From Lachnospiraceae bacterium (GTDB lineage: Bacteria; Bacillota; Clostridia; Lachnospirales; Lachnospiraceae), in the NCBI GenBank assembly GCA_014804785.1, contig JAAUZD010000012.1, forward strand, positions 54,311 through 109,233: 54,923 nucleotides of DNA. The letters are read 5' to 3'. A program made the position numbers and the translations under genes. Below the pieces are notes generated by a model that made no database searches, was not told where the DNA came from, and was given only the letters and a program-made list of their open reading frames with translations. Positions 1 to 7,408 of this stretch are shown in pieces (the first letter of the stretch is position 1; each line of letters begins with the position of its first letter).

Positions 1-36
1 GATAAGGTGCTGCCGGAGCTTCTTATTGGTATATAA
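1..36 (+). CDS. C-terminal tail of an upstream gene (partial)
   Basis: The first 36 bases read in frame 1 as DKVLPELLIGI followed by TAA. The stop is 13 bases before the ATG of the next gene, the spacing expected inside an operon. In many Firmicutes the gene ahead of a transglutaminase of this type encodes a DUF58 protein, so that is a guess from context only. Too little is left to identify a family. Confidence 0.4.
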   Translation, partial: DKVLPELLIGI

Positions 37-49
37 GGCTGGTAGGGAA

Positions 50-2563
50 ATGAAGGCTTTAAAAAGAAAGAAAAAGACAGAGCAGGTTTATAGTGAAGAC
101 ATTTGTATTATATCCCGGGAGCTGATTCAGACAGATGGAAAAAGACCCAATAAGGTATTTGCCTTTGTAATTGCCACAGCCTTATTATTTTTAGCAGCAG
201 CGGGATTTGCAGGTACATTTATTTCTGCATTTTCGATTTCCTATATAGCGCCTTTGTTTTATCCGGTCCTTTTGGCATTCTGCTTTTTTTGGGCAGGATT
301 TGCCAGGTTGAAGGTGGAGGGCGTTTACAGATTCCTGGCGCTGCTTGCGGCACTGATTGTATTCAGCGTGCTTCTTCTGATACTGCAGGGTTTCGTTATA
401 CCCGGTTTTTTGGAAACAATCAACAGTGTCATGAATAAATTGAATGAAGAATATGATGGAAATCTCGCACTGTATCAGGTAGCAGAAAATTCGGTGCAGA
501 TGACCGTTTTCCTTATTTTTGCGTGTTTTCTGGTGGCTGGCATTATTTCAGCCGGTCTGATGTACAGACCAAATATATGGTGCCTTATGGCAGTGGCTTT
601 TCCGCTGATCATGGGTGTACTGCTTGCCGGGGGAGCTCCCGGCGTAGGGTTCCTGCTTATGATACTGCTCGCCCTGATTGGCACCATTACAGCATCCACC
701 TTAAAAGATCCGCCTACCTTCTGGAAAGAAGGGGATAAAGAGCAGTTTGAACAAAACATGAACTGTTATGAAAGCATCCGGAGCAAAATAGTGGTGTTTA
801 TCATCGTTCTTGTGATGGCTTTGGCTGTACCTTCATTTTTCCTGTTAAGACCGGGACTTAATGTTCCGATAGAATTAGCAAGGCAGTCAGGGATGAAAGC
901 AGAAAATGGTATTCTGCAGGCGGTCTGGGGAATCCTGCCCAGGGTATCTGGCGGGCGCTTAAAGCTGTCGCTGGAAGGAGTCGGCGGCGGTGTGGATGAT
1001 GGCACATTAGGCGAAGTAGAAGGCTACTATTTTGGAAAGGTGCAGGCTCTTAAGCTGACAGCGCCGGAAAGACCGGAGGAAACCGTTTATCTTAAAGGTT
1101 TCATTGGATCGGTTTATAGTGGAAGCAGATTTGATGCCGCTGATGAAAACCGTTTCCTGAATGCAGCGTCAAACTGGAAAACACAGGATAATCCTGCTTT
1201 ATATGTGCACAATCTCCCATTCCTCCGGATGATGTATTCAGAAAATGTAAGCTTCTCTGAGGATCAGGATGATGTGACGCCGGAACTTTCAGGTGAGGTG
1301 GCATCATCTGCAAAAGAGCTTACTGTTGAAAATCTGGACGCTAATGATGCTTATGCATATCTGCCTTACAATGCTTTCCTAAATGAGTATTATGTGATGC
1401 TTGCCGGGGACGGTGCAGTAGAAGGGCAGACACGGCAGGATGATATTTTTTCTTATTATCCCAGGGAAATTTATCAGGAAACCATGGAAGACTGGATGCT
1501 CCATGAAGATTATCATAGTGTTTTAGACACTGCAATGACTTCTTATGAAAATTATGTGAATGCAGTGGACCTTCAGATTCCCGAGAGCGGTCTTGAGAGA
1601 CTGAAAGCAGATTGTGAGGCAGCGGAACTTACTGATATAGATGAGATTAAGGATTATGTGGTAAACACCTTATCACAGAATTATGTTTTCAACAGAGATG
1701 TGGAGCCCTTACCGGATGGAAAGGATTTTGTAGAATGGTTCTTATATGAGACAGGGGAAGGATATTCCACACATTTTGCAGCAGCAGCAACGATGATGTT
1801 CCGCATGTTCGGCGTACCTGCCAGATATGTAGTCGGGTATGTGGCGCCAAAGAGCATCTTTTCCAGACAGTCAGATGGTACTTACACGGCAATTCTGGAG
1901 GATGATAACGCACACGCATGGACAGAGATTTTTGTCTCCGGCGTGGGCTGGGTTCCGGTGGAGACCACACCTGGATTTGTGGCAATGCTGGAAGAGGCGA
2001 ATTATGATGCACAAAATGCCGGCGGAGAATCTGCAGGCAGTCAGACAGAGAAGCAGGAAGAGGAGCAGTCTGCTGCGGAATCAAAGGATGAGCAGGCAGG
2101 AGTGGAGAAAGAGAAATCATCTTCTTCATTCGGAGTATGGATGATCCTGCCGGTGATTGTCGGTGTTCTTCTCGTAAATGCCCTGATAATCCTGATCATT
2201 CACAGGAGGCATCTGCTGAAAAGAAGACTGGGGAAACTTTCAAAAAATAGCACAAAAGAAAATTTGAAATATGTTTACAAGAGTTTTTATGAGATGCTTT
2301 TATTTGATGGATGGCAGAGCGGACTAGGATGTTCTGATGATGCTTTTCCGGAAGAGGTTGCAGAGAAATATAAGGATTTGTCTGCAGAACAGGTGGGAGC
2401 CCTTGCAAGGATGGTGCTGCAGGCACATTATGGATATCAGGAGCAGGGGAAAAAGGAACTTTCATTTGTACGGAGTTCCTATATGAAGTTAGGAAAAGCA
2501 GTTTACAAAAAACAGCGCTTCAGGAAAAAGATCCAGTTCAAGCTGATCAAGTGCTATCTGTAA
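50..2563 (+). CDS. Membrane transglutaminase-like protein (TgpA type), catalytic Cys replaced by Ser
   Basis: About 837 residues. The ATG at 50 is chosen because GGTAGGG lies just upstream; a TTG at 26 would run into the previous gene. Hydrophobic segments at roughly 35-57, 61-81, 91-113, 151-173, 178-213 and 250-270 are followed by a long extracytoplasmic region, a transglutaminase-core domain near 550-645, an acidic linker, one more membrane helix near 710-732 and a cytoplasmic tail. This is the TgpA/DUF3488 plan. The domain keeps the VPARYVVGY block and the AHAWTE histidine (His622). The position normally held by the nucleophilic Cys is Ser573 (GYSTHFA, codon TCC), and the usual Asp is Glu638 (VETTPG). 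A classical thiol mechanism is therefore not expected; binding or an altered reaction is possible. Two sortase genes follow, 19 bases downstream, suggesting a role at the cell wall. Confidence 0.85.
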   Translation: MKALKRKKKTEQVYSEDICIISRELIQTDGKRPNKVFAFVIATALLFLAAAGFAGTFISAFSISYIAPLFYPVLLAFCFFWAGFARLKVEGVYRFLALLAALIVFSVLLLILQGFVIPGFLETINSVMNKLNEEYDGNLALYQVAENSVQMTVFLIFACFLVAGIISAGLMYRPNIWCLMAVAFPLIMGVLLAGGAPGVGFLLMILLALIGTITASTLKDPPTFWKEGDKEQFEQNMNCYESIRSKIVVFIIVLVMALAVPSFFLLRPGLNVPIELARQSGMKAENGILQAVWGILPRVSGGRLKLSLEGVGGGVDDGTLGEVEGYYFGKVQALKLTAPERPEETVYLKGFIGSVYSGSRFDAADENRFLNAASNWKTQDNPALYVHNLPFLRMMYSENVSFSEDQDDVTPELSGEVASSAKELTVENLDANDAYAYLPYNAFLNEYYVMLAGDGAVEGQTRQDDIFSYYPREIYQETMEDWMLHEDYHSVLDTAMTSYENYVNAVDLQIPESGLERLKADCEAAELTDIDEIKDYVVNTLSQNYVFNRDVEPLPDGKDFVEWFLYETGEGYSTHFAAAATMMFRMFGVPARYVVGYVAPKSIFSRQSDGTYTAILEDDNAHAWTEIFVSGVGWVPVETTPGFVAMLEEANYDAQNAGGESAGSQTEKQEEEQSAAESKDEQAGVEKEKSSSSFGVWMILPVIVGVLLVNALIILIIHRRHLLKRRLGKLSKNSTKENLKYVYKSFYEMLLFDGWQSGLGCSDDAFPEEVAEKYKDLSAEQVGALARMVLQAHYGYQEQGKKELSFVRSSYMKLGKAVYKKQRFRKKIQFKLIKCYL

Positions 2564-2581: not shown

Positions 2582-3295
2582 ATGAGAAGACGTTTGCCTA
2601 TGGTCCTGGCAGTTATCGTATGTCTTGCCGGATTGGGAGTTTTACTGTATCCTACCGTCAGTAATTGGTGGAATCTGTGGATGCAGTCCCGGTTGATTTC
2701 AGAATATGAAAGAAAAGTGGAAGAACTGGATGAGGAAGAATTTACAGAGATATATGATGCAGCAAGAATTTATAACGAAAAGCTATATCAGCTGGGGCTT
2801 TCCTTTGCAAGTATAGATGCAAATGATGAAAGACTCAGCGTAAATGGTCAGAATTACGACCAGCTCCTCAACATAAACGGAAATGGAGTGATGGGATATG
2901 TGGTCATCGACAAGATTGGTGTACGGCTCGCCATCAATCATGGAACAGATGATGAGGTACTGCATGACGCTGTGGGACATCTGGAAGGCAGTTCGCTTCC
3001 AGTGGGAGGCGAGAATACACATGCTGCATTGTTCGGACACAGGGGACTGCCCTCTGCACTGCTGTTTACAGATCTGGATCAGATAGAAATTGGGGATTAT
3101 TTTCAGGTCAATATTCTGGGAAGGAGCCTGAATTATCAGGTGGATCAGATTCTTGTGGTTGAACCTCATGAAACGGATCCGCTTGAAATTGAAGATGGGA
3201 AAGACTATGTCACCCTGGTAACTTGTACGCCTTATGCGGTCAACACGCACAGGCTTTTAATCCGGGGAGTCCGGGTGGATAGTGAAATAGAGTAA
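2582..3295 (+). CDS. Class C-type (pilin) sortase
   Basis: 237 residues, start ATG at 2582 behind AGAGGAG and AGAAGG. An N-terminal membrane helix (about 5-27) is followed by a helical spacer and the sortase barrel. The catalytic residues are visible: His153 in LFGHRGLP, Cys215 in TLVTCTPY and Arg224 in NTHRLLIRG. The TCTPYxVNTHRLLxRG pattern is typical of class C sortases, which polymerise pilins by cutting LPXTG-like signals and joining the product to a lysine. The classical class C lid is not obvious, so the class call rests on the core motifs. It lies between the transglutaminase-like gene and a gene that supplies an LPQTG substrate, which is its likely partner. Confidence 0.9.
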   Translation: MRRRLPMVLAVIVCLAGLGVLLYPTVSNWWNLWMQSRLISEYERKVEELDEEEFTEIYDAARIYNEKLYQLGLSFASIDANDERLSVNGQNYDQLLNINGNGVMGYVVIDKIGVRLAINHGTDDEVLHDAVGHLEGSSLPVGGENTHAALFGHRGLPSALLFTDLDQIEIGDYFQVNILGRSLNYQVDQILVVEPHETDPLEIEDGKDYVTLVTCTPYAVNTHRLLIRGVRVDSEIE

Positions 3296-3354: not shown

Positions 3355-5013
3355 ATGAAAATGAAAAGGTGGATAAGAAAAATTGTCCCAATCGTGAGCG
3401 CAGTGCTCCTTACGTTGTCCTGTGGTATCATCGCCTATGCTGATGGGAATATCAGCGGGCCAGGGAGCCTTAGAATCGACGTTGATGACGGAGAAGATGG
3501 CATTGCGGGTGCTGAATTTACGATCTATCAGGTACAGCAATGGACCGCAACGGGACCGGATCAGGATCTTGAGTGGATTGGAGACTTTGCAGAATATGGA
3601 AAGCAGGATATCGGAAGCCTCCGTGGTAAGTCGGCAAGGTTTTTAAAGTCAGCCGCAGAGTTATTACTCGCTTATATTGATGAAAATGATATTTCCGGTT
3701 ATGACTATAAATCTACCAAAACGGATGGAACTGTAACATTTAATAATCTTAATCCTGGTGTATATCTGGTAGTAGTGACCGAGCAGCCTGATGGTTATAC
3801 TGTGACCTCTCCTTTTCTGGCATTTGTGCCGAGAGTAGAGACCAACGGTGATGTATATTATAACGTGAGTGTGGAAGCTAAGATAGAGGCAGCGCCGACA
3901 CCGACGCCGACACCGACCCCTACACCGACAGCGACACCTAAGCCGACGGCAACGCCTACTCCGACGGCAACGCCTACTCCGACGGCAACGCCTACTCCGA
4001 CGGCAACTCCTAAGCCGACAGCGACTCCTACACCAAAGCCGTCAAGTACACCGGGACCGACGAACCCGCCAACCCCGGCACCGCCGACACCGGGACCGAC
4101 AGCACCTGCCACCCCGGGACCGACAGCGCCACCGACACCAGCGCCTACCCCGGGACCGACGGAGGTGCCTCCGCAGATAACACCCAGTACGCCTGCACCG
4201 GTGCCCACGCCTGACAAGGGAGTCCTTGGCATGCGCAGGAAAAGAGGCTGGGACCAGGGCGTATTAGGAAAGAGAAGGCTTCCCCAGACAGGAACGCTGC
4301 AGTGGCCCATACCTGTACTCGCAGGAGCAGGAATCCTGCTGTTCTTCCTTGGCTGGATGAGAATGTACGGGAAGAAGAATAAAACAGAAGACGAAAGCGG
4401 AAATAAAAAGAAAAGAAAAGGCATGCTGCTCATGAGCGTCGGACCGCTTATGATCGTTGGCGGCATGGGAATCCTGCTTTATAACAACTGGGATAACGAC
4501 AGGGCAGCGAAGGCTGCACAGGAAGTGCTCGTCCAGATAGAGCAGAACGCTGAGAAGGCGGAAAAAGCGAAAAGCGGAATCGTCCTGGAAGAAAAGGAAG
4601 AGATAGACCTGACCATGTCAACGATTGAGGTGGACGGTTTCACCTACATTGGGGAAGTTGCGATTCCGGCAATCGATATCTCCCTGCCTGTGATGAATTC
4701 CGTTACCGGCGAGGGCCTTAAGATCGCACCGGGCAGATATGAAGGCAACTATAAGGAAAATTCCCTGATCATAGCCGCCCATAATTATCAGAGGCATTTT
4801 GGAAACATCAAGTATCTCACTCCGGGAGACCAGGTAGTCTTTCTGGATGTGGACGGAACAGAGTACTTCTATGAAGTAGCAGAGATTGAGACTGTTGGAG
4901 GTACAAAAGTATCAGCAATGTCTGAGGGGGACTGGGATTTGACTTTGTTCACCTGTACCTATGGAGGAAGAAACAGGGTAACGGTAAGATGTAATCTGCA
5001 GGAAGAAGTATAA
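3355..5013 (+). CDS. Pilin-like LPQTG protein fused to its own sortase domain
   Basis: 552 residues in one open frame, start ATG at 3355 behind AAGAGGGAGA. Order: signal peptide (1-30); one Cna-B/SpaA-like domain (about 35-175, with GAEFTIYQV and the Glu-containing VTEQPDGY strand typical of isopeptide pilin domains); a Pro/Thr linker of TPTP and PGPT units (about 180-290); a doubled GVLGxRR segment; LPQTG at 309-313; a membrane helix and basic tail (KKNK, KKKRK); a second membrane helix (about 358-378); and a complete sortase domain. The sortase has His476 in IIAAHNYQ, Cys534 in LFTCTYGG and Arg541 (or Arg545) in RNRVTVRC, resembling class B/D-like housekeeping enzymes. Substrate and sortase are normally separate genes. 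An internal ATG near 4423 has only a weak ribosome site, so separate translation of the sortase is possible but not favoured. A hairpin terminator follows. Confidence 0.9.
   Translation: MKMKRWIRKIVPIVSAVLLTLSCGIIAYADGNISGPGSLRIDVDDGEDGIAGAEFTIYQVQQWTATGPDQDLEWIGDFAEYGKQDIGSLRGKSARFLKSAAELLLAYIDENDISGYDYKSTKTDGTVTFNNLNPGVYLVVVTEQPDGYTVTSPFLAFVPRVETNGDVYYNVSVEAKIEAAPTPTPTPTPTPTATPKPTATPTPTATPTPTATPTPTATPKPTATPTPKPSSTPGPTNPPTPAPPTPGPTAPATPGPTAPPTPAPTPGPTEVPPQITPSTPAPVPTPDKGVLGMRRKRGWDQGVLGKRRLPQTGTLQWPIPVLAGAGILLFFLGWMRMYGKKNKTEDESGNKKKRKGMLLMSVGPLMIVGGMGILLYNNWDNDRAAKAAQEVLVQIEQNAEKAEKAKSGIVLEEKEEIDLTMSTIEVDGFTYIGEVAIPAIDISLPVMNSVTGEGLKIAPGRYEGNYKENSLIIAAHNYQRHFGNIKYLTPGDQVVFLDVDGTEYFYEVAEIETVGGTKVSAMSEGDWDLTLFTCTYGGRNRVTVRCNLQEEV
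3951..4004 (+). repeat. Three perfect 18-bp tandem repeats in the Pro/Thr linker
   Basis: The unit AACGCCTACTCCGACGGC occurs three times head to tail, encoding TPTPTA-type units. The flanking 250 bases contain further degenerate copies (CCGACACCGACG and similar). The 18-bp period is in frame, so slippage would change the length of the wall-spanning stalk without breaking the gene. Confidence 0.9.
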
Positions 5014-5024
5014 TATCATAAGAT

Positions 5025-5068
5025 TTAAAAAAGGGACTGTTCAATATGCAACAGTCCCTTCGCTATTG
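5025..5068 (+). terminator. Intrinsic terminator after the pilin-sortase gene
   Basis: An 11-bp perfect stem, AAGGGACTGTT (5031-5041) and AACAGTCCCTT (5050-5060), with an 8-base loop, 18 bases after the stop codon. An A-run precedes it and a moderately T-rich stretch follows. It separates the surface operon from cwlD. Confidence 0.75.
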
Positions 5069-6208: not shown

Positions 6209-7408
6209 ATGTCTGTAAATAACACATCTGATTATATTTCTGGCGACGCTGACAATCATATATTTTATAAAACATCTGCGAATGCAACCAATTATGTAAC
6301 TAATAAAACATTTGCTGATGCAGTCGATTGTATATCTGAAAAAATCACAGAAAAAGTAAATATTTCGTTTTTGCCCTCTTTTTCTTCTTATGATGAAGTA
6401 AGGCGGCACTTTGTGGAATACCCAGAGATATGGGAATCATTTTTGAAACTGCCAGCTAGGCTACAGCGAGAACTGCTAGACTTCTGCATGGGGAAGCACG
6501 GGCTTAAGGTGACTTATGATCCGGTCTTCCAGAGGGTATTCCATCCTGTGAAACACCCGGAGCGTTTAGAATCCTTCCTTTCATCTTTTCTTGGAAAGAA
6601 AATCCGCATCATAGACATTCTTCCAAGGCAGGGAACGCAGATGGTGGAGAAAGGAAGTTTTGTTATTTTGGATGCCCTTGTGCAGCTTGATGATTGTTCC
6701 TATGCCAACGTGGAGATGCAGAAGATCGGCTACAAATTTCCCCTTGCCAGGACAGACTGCTACGTTTCAGATATCATCATGCGCCAGTACGAATGGAAAC
6801 GTGCACAACTGGGGAAGGAATTTGACTTTCAAAAACTCCAAAAGGTATACTGCATCATCCTGATGGAACAGAGTTCTTCAGAATTTCATACTGCCAAAGG
6901 TAGCTACATACATAAACGTTCATCTTCCTTTAATACGGGAATCTTCCGGGACAATCCGGGGCTCCATGAAGAATTCTTTATCTGTCTTGACATTTTCCGT
7001 TCCAATACACATAATATAACTAAATACAGTACTGTTTTGGATGCGTGGCTGACATTTTTCAGTACTACAGAACTTGGAGCAATCAGGGAATTGATTGAAC
7101 GCTTCCCCATGTTCCTGCCCATTTATCAAGAAATCACAGAATTTGTCAGAGAACCGGAGGAGTTGATGCATATGTTTACAGAAGCGCTTTACATTATGGA
7201 TCGTAATACGGAACGGCTTATGGTGAGCGAACTGCAGGATGAAGTGGATGGACTGAAGTCCAGAGTCAAGGTGGTAGCTGCAGAACGGGACGTATTCAAA
7301 TTGCGATTTAAAGGTAAAATAGCTGAAGAAATTGCCGAAGAACTTTCCATCAGCGTTGGAAGGGTGAAGGAGATTCTGGGGGAGAGTAATCAAGGTAGTC
7401 AAAATTAG
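6209..7408 (+). CDS. Rpn-family recombination-promoting nuclease / PD-(D/E)XK transposase-like protein
   Basis: 399 residues, ATG at 6209 behind AAGGAG. The central part (from YDPVFQRVFHP, about residue 103, to 270) has the layout of Rpn/PDDEXK_2 proteins: a D in VILDALVQL, then the ExQ-type NVEMQKIGY catalytic pair, then a RTDCYVSDIIMRQYEW helix. The last 60 residues form a helix and a putative helix-turn-helix (AEEIAEELSISVGRVKEIL). The first 60 residues are Asn/Thr rich and do not look like the family core. Rpn proteins are DNA endonucleases linked to RecA-independent recombination and often occur as scattered multicopy genes. A truncated relative is present at 19612-19875. Confidence 0.8.
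   Translation: MSVNNTSDYISGDADNHIFYKTSANATNYVTNKTFADAVDCISEKITEKVNISFLPSFSSYDEVRRHFVEYPEIWESFLKLPARLQRELLDFCMGKHGLKVTYDPVFQRVFHPVKHPERLESFLSSFLGKKIRIIDILPRQGTQMVEKGSFVILDALVQLDDCSYANVEMQKIGYKFPLARTDCYVSDIIMRQYEWKRAQLGKEFDFQKLQKVYCIILMEQSSSEFHTAKGSYIHKRSSSFNTGIFRDNPGLHEEFFICLDIFRSNTHNITKYSTVLDAWLTFFSTTELGAIRELIERFPMFLPIYQEITEFVREPEELMHMFTEALYIMDRNTERLMVSELQDEVDGLKSRVKVVAAERDVFKLRFKGKIAEEIAEELSISVGRVKEILGESNQGSQN

Follow-up and report, generated by a model that had tools for sequence, protein, structure and literature searches.

A base-pilin-like LPQTG protein and a sortase encoded as one polypeptide in a Lachnospiraceae pilus operon

A single gene in a Lachnospiraceae pilus operon encodes both an LPQTG surface protein that resembles a pilus base pilin and a sortase. 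The gene lies in the window, a stretch of 54,923 nucleotides from contig JAAUZD010000012.1 (assembly GCA_014804785.1), and we consider it probable that its product is a pilus base subunit made in one chain with its own wall-anchoring sortase. The switch of a pilus from lengthening to wall anchoring depends on the base pilin meeting the anchoring sortase. Because the two are naturally fused here, the anchoring step becomes testable in one purified protein, and the several related bacteria with similar fusions form a natural system for studying pilus anchoring. Literature searches, with subscription papers mostly outside their reach, returned no description of a natural pilin-sortase fusion, and none of a sortase-substrate fusion was found in the accessible part of PMC1569441.

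The fused gene is one forward-strand frame (Table 1), running from ATG to TAA over 552 codons with zero internal stops. Its product is ordered as signal peptide, pilin domain, Pro/Thr stalk, LPQTG, membrane helix, basic loop, second membrane helix and sortase. In Pfam comparisons, the SpaA prealbumin-like profile (PF17802) matched residues 43-153 at 33.2 bits and GramPos_pilinD1 (PF16555) matched residues 44-172 at 28.3 bits, both against a cut-off of 23.1. The NCBIfam LPXTG_anchor profile matched residues 309-342 at 16.6 bits, just over its cut-off of 15.9. Hydrophobic 19-mers scoring above 1.4 were confined to residues 10-28, 317-335 and 357-375 of the 552-residue protein. Given this order of domains and helices, both working halves, pilin and sortase, should be extracellular. 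The sortase residues His476, Cys534 and Arg541 were invariant in 39 aligned sequences. Reading frame, Pfam and hydropathy thus agree with the initial annotation, which had described one 552-codon frame with a signal peptide, a stalk, LPQTG, two helices and a sortase carrying these three residues. The domain it had called Cna-B is present, but by Pfam is better named a pilin D1/SpaA-type domain. Between positions 2400 and 6200, five terminator-like sites were found against 3.3 expected in shuffles.

Table 1. Features of the fused gene and its neighbours, in window coordinates
Feature	Position	Strand	Basis
Membrane transglutaminase-like protein, part of the MoxR-DUF58-transglutaminase set	26..2563	+	PF01841
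Class C sortase (srtC2)	2582..3295	+	NF033745, 260 bits, cut-off 160
Fused gene, base-pilin-like LPQTG protein and sortase (552 aa)	3355..5013	+	ORF, Pfam, NCBIfam, genus alignment
Signal peptide region, residues 1-30 (hydrophobic core 10-28)	3355..3444	+	Hydropathy
Pilin D1/SpaA-type domain, residues ~37-180	3463..3894	+	PF16555 and PF17802, both above cut-off
Lys176, candidate linking lysine (aligns with that of the shaft-pilin motif)	3880..3882	+	Alignments, plain and K-masked
Pro/Thr-rich stalk, residues 181-290	3895..4224	+	Sequence
LPQTG sorting motif, residues 309-313	4279..4293	+	TIGR01167; invariant in the five fusions of the genus
Membrane helix 1, residues 317-335	4303..4359	+	Hydropathy
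Short basic loop, residues 336-356, presumably cytoplasmic	4360..4422	+	Hydropathy, genus alignment
Membrane helix 2, residues 357-375	4423..4479	+	Hydropathy
Sortase domain, residues 436-548	4660..4998	+	PF04203, 61.4 bits, cut-off 26.6
Sortase residues His476, Cys534, Arg541	4780-4782, 4954-4956, 4975-4977	+	Alignment
Terminator-like stem-loop, 11 pairs, directly behind the fused gene	5031..5060	+	Stem-loop scan, weak alone

The whole protein was found, with its frame open, in four other genomes of the same genus at 74-77% identity (60 genomes searched, own included), and the fusion occurred in 5 of the 37 genomes of the genus, again counting its own. Two of the four relatives (G004 and G009) are nearly identical, so the four comparisons amount to about three independent ones. 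The sole other matches in the genus at E<=1e-12 were two distant separate sortases (G003 and G008). A class C sortase upstream and CwlD downstream flanked the fusion in all four relatives. The transglutaminase was present in three; the contig of the fourth (G009) begins just before the class C sortase. In the genus alignment, the loop between the helices differed in length among species by whole codons. The initial annotation had named a missed stop between LPQTG and the second helix, or relatives in which the two genes are all split, as what would speak against the fusion. All four relatives read through this region with whole-codon loop differences, and close relatives that have the gene have it fused. 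The same domain order, which it had proposed to look for in other Lachnospiraceae, was present in these four genomes and in one rumen Lachnospiraceae. That a sequencing or assembly artefact joined two genes is therefore vanishingly improbable: nothing favours it except the rarity of the arrangement, and it is refuted by the same open fusion in four other genus assemblies and one rumen genome. We rejected it.

Within the genus, dN/dS over four pairs was 0.013-0.043 for the sortase, 0.04-0.08 for LPQTG with helix 1, 0.15-0.22 for the pilin domain and 0.12-0.68 for the 18-20 codon loop between the helices; these values come from a counting method and are rough, with synonymous sites near saturation. 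Judging from these comparisons, purifying selection acts on both halves of the fusion. It is very unlikely that internal initiation near Met357 or Met360 yields a second product besides the fused chain. ATG codons do stand at the start of helix 2, with purine-rich bases upstream in all five genomes of the genus. The purine run, however, stops one base short of the ATG, which is unfavourable spacing for ribosome binding, and the rumen form does not conserve it. There is also no stop, and the loop keeps its frame, with whole-codon differences, in the five genomes.

The operon around the fused gene encodes, in order, a 2434-aa protein, a 695-aa shaft pilin, a class C sortase, MoxR, DUF58, the transglutaminase, a second class C sortase and the fusion. 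The last three lie within the window and the remaining genes upstream of it. For the first sortase, MoxR, DUF58 and the giant protein, domains were identified on copies in another genome (G035), the N bases of our own sequence being left as N; on this copy the first sortase scored 274.8 bits as class C (cut-off 160). The shaft pilin has D1, backbone and SpaA domains and ends in LPTTGG. The 2434-aa protein ends in an MPATGG anchor and, from its size and position, is a putative tip adhesin. A PD-(D/E)XK transposase-family gene (PF12784) was seen downstream at window positions 6209-7408, and a gene that looks similar by eye upstream (G000:C12:39345-40298).

The MoxR-DUF58-transglutaminase set (window 26-2563 and G000:C12:52287-54346) was also seen inside pilus operons of other genera (L197 and L202, both G334; L198; L199; L201). 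In one of these, DUF58 and the transglutaminase are apparently joined in a single 1195-aa frame (L201:247-3837, minus strand, G211). Three operons (G334, G068 and G390) carry a shaft pilin, sortases and the set, followed by a second class C-like sortase. No LPQTG-sortase pair was found in the fetched stretch of these three operons, suggesting that such pili can do without the fused protein, a point that weighs slightly against our main reading.

We compared the substrate half with published base pilins. According to the accessible parts of three papers (PMC8244301, PMC7900414, PMC11389406), these carry between one and three CnaB domains and a linking lysine, in most cases also a proline-rich tail, and a housekeeping sortase encoded elsewhere anchors them. 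In the fusion, one CnaB/D1-type domain was recognised (both PF16555 and PF17802 exceed cut-off, in the window protein as in the G014 copy), a proline-rich tail at residues 181-290 precedes LPXTG, and the operon supplies a shaft pilin, a class C sortase and a tip protein, the last by its presumed role. The anchoring sortase is not separately encoded but forms part of the same chain. For the linking lysine, which base pilins have in the last strand of the domain, the first domains of six fusions, six shaft pilins and 11 hand-picked unfused LPQTG partners were aligned; one partner came from G045 and ten from the 35 found when 36 loci were tried. The Lys176 column coincided with the pilin-motif lysine in all six fusions, all six shaft pilins and nine of the 11 unfused partners, the alignment being of low identity. 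When all lysines were masked before aligning, they still coincided in 17 of 23 rows, the highest count for any column occupied in 12 or more rows; G286 among the fusions, two shaft pilins and three partners fell out of register.

The substrate half thus looks, from sequence, like a base pilin behind a full pilus operon rather than a fibre of itself. With the base pilins SpaB (Corynebacterium, L. rhamnosus GG) and FctB (Streptococcus pyogenes) it shares a signal peptide, a CnaB/D1-type domain and LPXTG, together with a candidate pilin-motif lysine, a Pro-rich tail and a pilus operon, as far as these are described in the accessible parts of PMC8244301 and PMC7900414. Their anchoring sortase, by contrast, is separate, with its gene elsewhere in the genome (PMC8244301, accessible part). 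The earlier proposal of a self-anchoring surface fibre is consistent with a real, conserved fusion beside a class C sortase; its fibre part gives way to a substrate half that looks like a base pilin and not like a self-built fibre.

The fused sortase resembles other PF04203 sortases in having the domain over cut-off and conserved His, Cys and Arg. It differs from them in that an LPQTG substrate and a membrane helix of its own precede it in the same chain, and in falling below every NCBIfam sortase cut-off. It scored 40.7 bits against the class C model NF033745 (cut-off 160), and 19.9 and 38 bits against the class D models NF033746 (cut-off 165) and NF058671 (cut-off 140); no NCBIfam sortase model, the general sortase_fam included, was matched over its cut-off. 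The closest solved structure by PDB sequence comparison was 2kw8, which decides no class. Neither NCBIfam nor PDB sequences therefore placed the enzyme, and the acceptor, wall precursor or lysine, is not readable from its class.

Its substrate was approached through the genome's other sortases and anchors. Seven sortase matches were found: two of class C, the fusion, three that came closest to class B, at 151.6, 123.3 and 116.1 bits, without reaching its cut-off of 153.75, and a weak one. LPQTG, with L or F allowed as first residue, has ten exact DNA matches in the genome, and only that of the fusion is followed by a helix. Five anchors exceeded the profile cut-off: the fusion, the shaft pilin (LPTTGG), the adhesin (MPATGG), a TPKTGD protein about 6 kb from a class B-like sortase, and one on the minus strand (C45), which has the helix and lacks an LPXTG-like motif. 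Neither the LPQTG pattern nor the anchor-profile search found another LPQTG anchor in the genome. The sole visible LPQTG substrate of the fused enzyme is thus its own chain.

It is rather unlikely, in our estimate, that LPQTG is cut by another enzyme, such as the adjoining class C sortase, and that the fused sortase serves other surface proteins, the fusion securing only co-production and co-location. The two class C sortases in the operon and the lack of an assigned class for the fused enzyme favour this alternative. Against it stand the single helix-backed LPQTG among ten matches, the other motif-bearing anchors being the operon pilins (LPTTGG and MPATGG) and TPKTGD near a class B-like sortase, and the adjacency of LPQTG genes to this sortase type in most of the best 80 of 207 relatives.

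These relatives came from a scan of named genomes with the sortase half, which returned 207; the best 80 were classified by script into 5 fused, 63 with an LPxTG-type gene upstream and 12 without. The end of the upstream gene fell anywhere from 289 bases ahead of the sortase match to 11 bases into it, and was no more than 80 bases from the match in 60 of the 63 calls. One call (L109) was dropped as false, its true upstream neighbour ending in the variant IHTGQLNW. After checking, 62 of these 80 loci had a separate sortase gene with an LPxTG-type gene directly upstream, the motif being LPQTG in 54, LPNTG in 3 and single variants in 5. Of the 12 loci without such a gene, one (L121) corresponds to the G045 locus; its pilus gene cluster does contain an LPQTG gene, about 3 kb further upstream. 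Among the same best 80, a class C-like sortase was present in 64 loci, a shaft-pilin-like match in 32 and the MoxR-DUF58-transglutaminase set in only 4, all of them fused.

The statement in the initial annotation that substrate and sortase are separate genes describes the rule in these 80 loci too, but fusions occur in five genera. The tandem pairs share with the fusion the substrate motif and gene order, and their sortases belong to the same family as the fused one (37-52% identity); unlike the window fusion, they are two genes. With such tandems so common among relatives, the fusion looks like a lost gene boundary, and it probably arose, on this sequence comparison, when a tandem pair of LPQTG gene and sortase gene lost the boundary between them. 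By the same token, the fusion suggests that the neighbouring LPQTG gene encodes the substrate of this unclassified clostridial sortase. Relatives of the sortase are frequent in the family, being found in 72 of 397 sampled genomes, own included, at E<=1e-12.

In the mechanism that we propose, the chain would be exported with its two helices in the membrane and the pilin and sortase halves outside, a topology taken from the helices. A class C sortase would link the final shaft pilin, through the threonine of its LPTTGG, to Lys176, ending growth. The fused sortase would cut its own LPQTG, or that of a neighbouring chain, at the expected T312-G313 bond, and the threonine T312 would be handed to a cell-wall precursor, leaving the pilus wall-bound and the rear part, G313-552, as a two-helix membrane sortase. 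We infer both the cutting, in cis or between molecules, and the wall attachment from sequence features. The lasting, strict 1:1 supply of enzyme and substrate proposed earlier would hold only at birth, since each cut would leave a two-helix sortase (G313-552) able to act again.

Fusions were found in a total of 11 genomes from five genera, three of these genera in addition to those of the window and the rumen form and with the same general layout. Among the 72 matching genomes of the family sample (397 searched, own included), at least 4 carried one, a lower bound as only longer frames were opened and small fusions could escape. In the order sample, 59 of 392 genomes matched at E<=1e-20 and five had fusions (our own, G071, G645, G735 and G737). 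In the class sample, 35 of 391 genomes matched, and the sole long frame besides our own (G1093) was rejected as a fusion because its upstream stretch is out of frame, as was that of L087. G279 was also rejected, its long frame reflecting an extra C-terminal part; this sortase (L162) has a long C-terminal extension, a reverse domain order.

The rumen fusion (L056, identical in sequence to G090) has 443 aa and stands in an operon of shaft pilin, class C sortase, MoxR, DUF58, transglutaminase, class C sortase and fusion; unlike in the window genus, CwlD does not follow. Two further fusions, of 527 aa from its ATG (G286) and 437 aa (G071), immediately follow genes for a pilin and a class C sortase. 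In genus g178, three species encode proteins of 1019-1034 aa with LPEAG, two helices and a sortase. These (L209, L210 and L211) have Cys-rich repeats and a long ectodomain, LPEAG in place of LPxTG, a helix, a charged loop, a second helix and the sortase, and adjoin a class C sortase (tested in L211) and a pilin ending in LPSTGG. The LPEAG of g178, in all three species opened, is what would favour a chain that is never cut, its sortase staying tethered to the pilin-like stalk and the pilus membrane-bound through it. We regard this as improbable: the window genus, the rumen form and G286 all retain LPQTG, PQTG is present in 6 of 6 aligned fusions, and LPQTG with helix 1 has a low dN/dS (0.04-0.08). 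LPEAG itself may be cut, as SrtA reportedly recognises LPLAG in a streptococcal base pilin (PMC7900414, accessible part).

Cleavage of LPQTG by the fused sortase remains our preferred reading. A more specific form of it, in which the protein is a self-processing pilus terminator that cuts itself in cis, so that the growth-ending event would bring the anchoring enzyme to the fibre concerned and free a reusable membrane sortase, and which arose several times from an ancient tandem pair, is possible but doubtful as a whole. The number of origins was addressed with trees that exclude the g178 fusions. In a careful 38-row tree, the window genus and the rumen form made one clade (95/97), with G286 and G071 elsewhere, and all fusions grouped together in 0% of 200 bootstrap trees. 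The AU test, by contrast, gave p = 0.812 for all fusions as one clade, in a comparison whose free quick search had overlooked a better tree, and p = 0.164 without G071. As the AU tests do not reject a single clade, several independent origins of the fusion are likely, from sequence, rather than certain.
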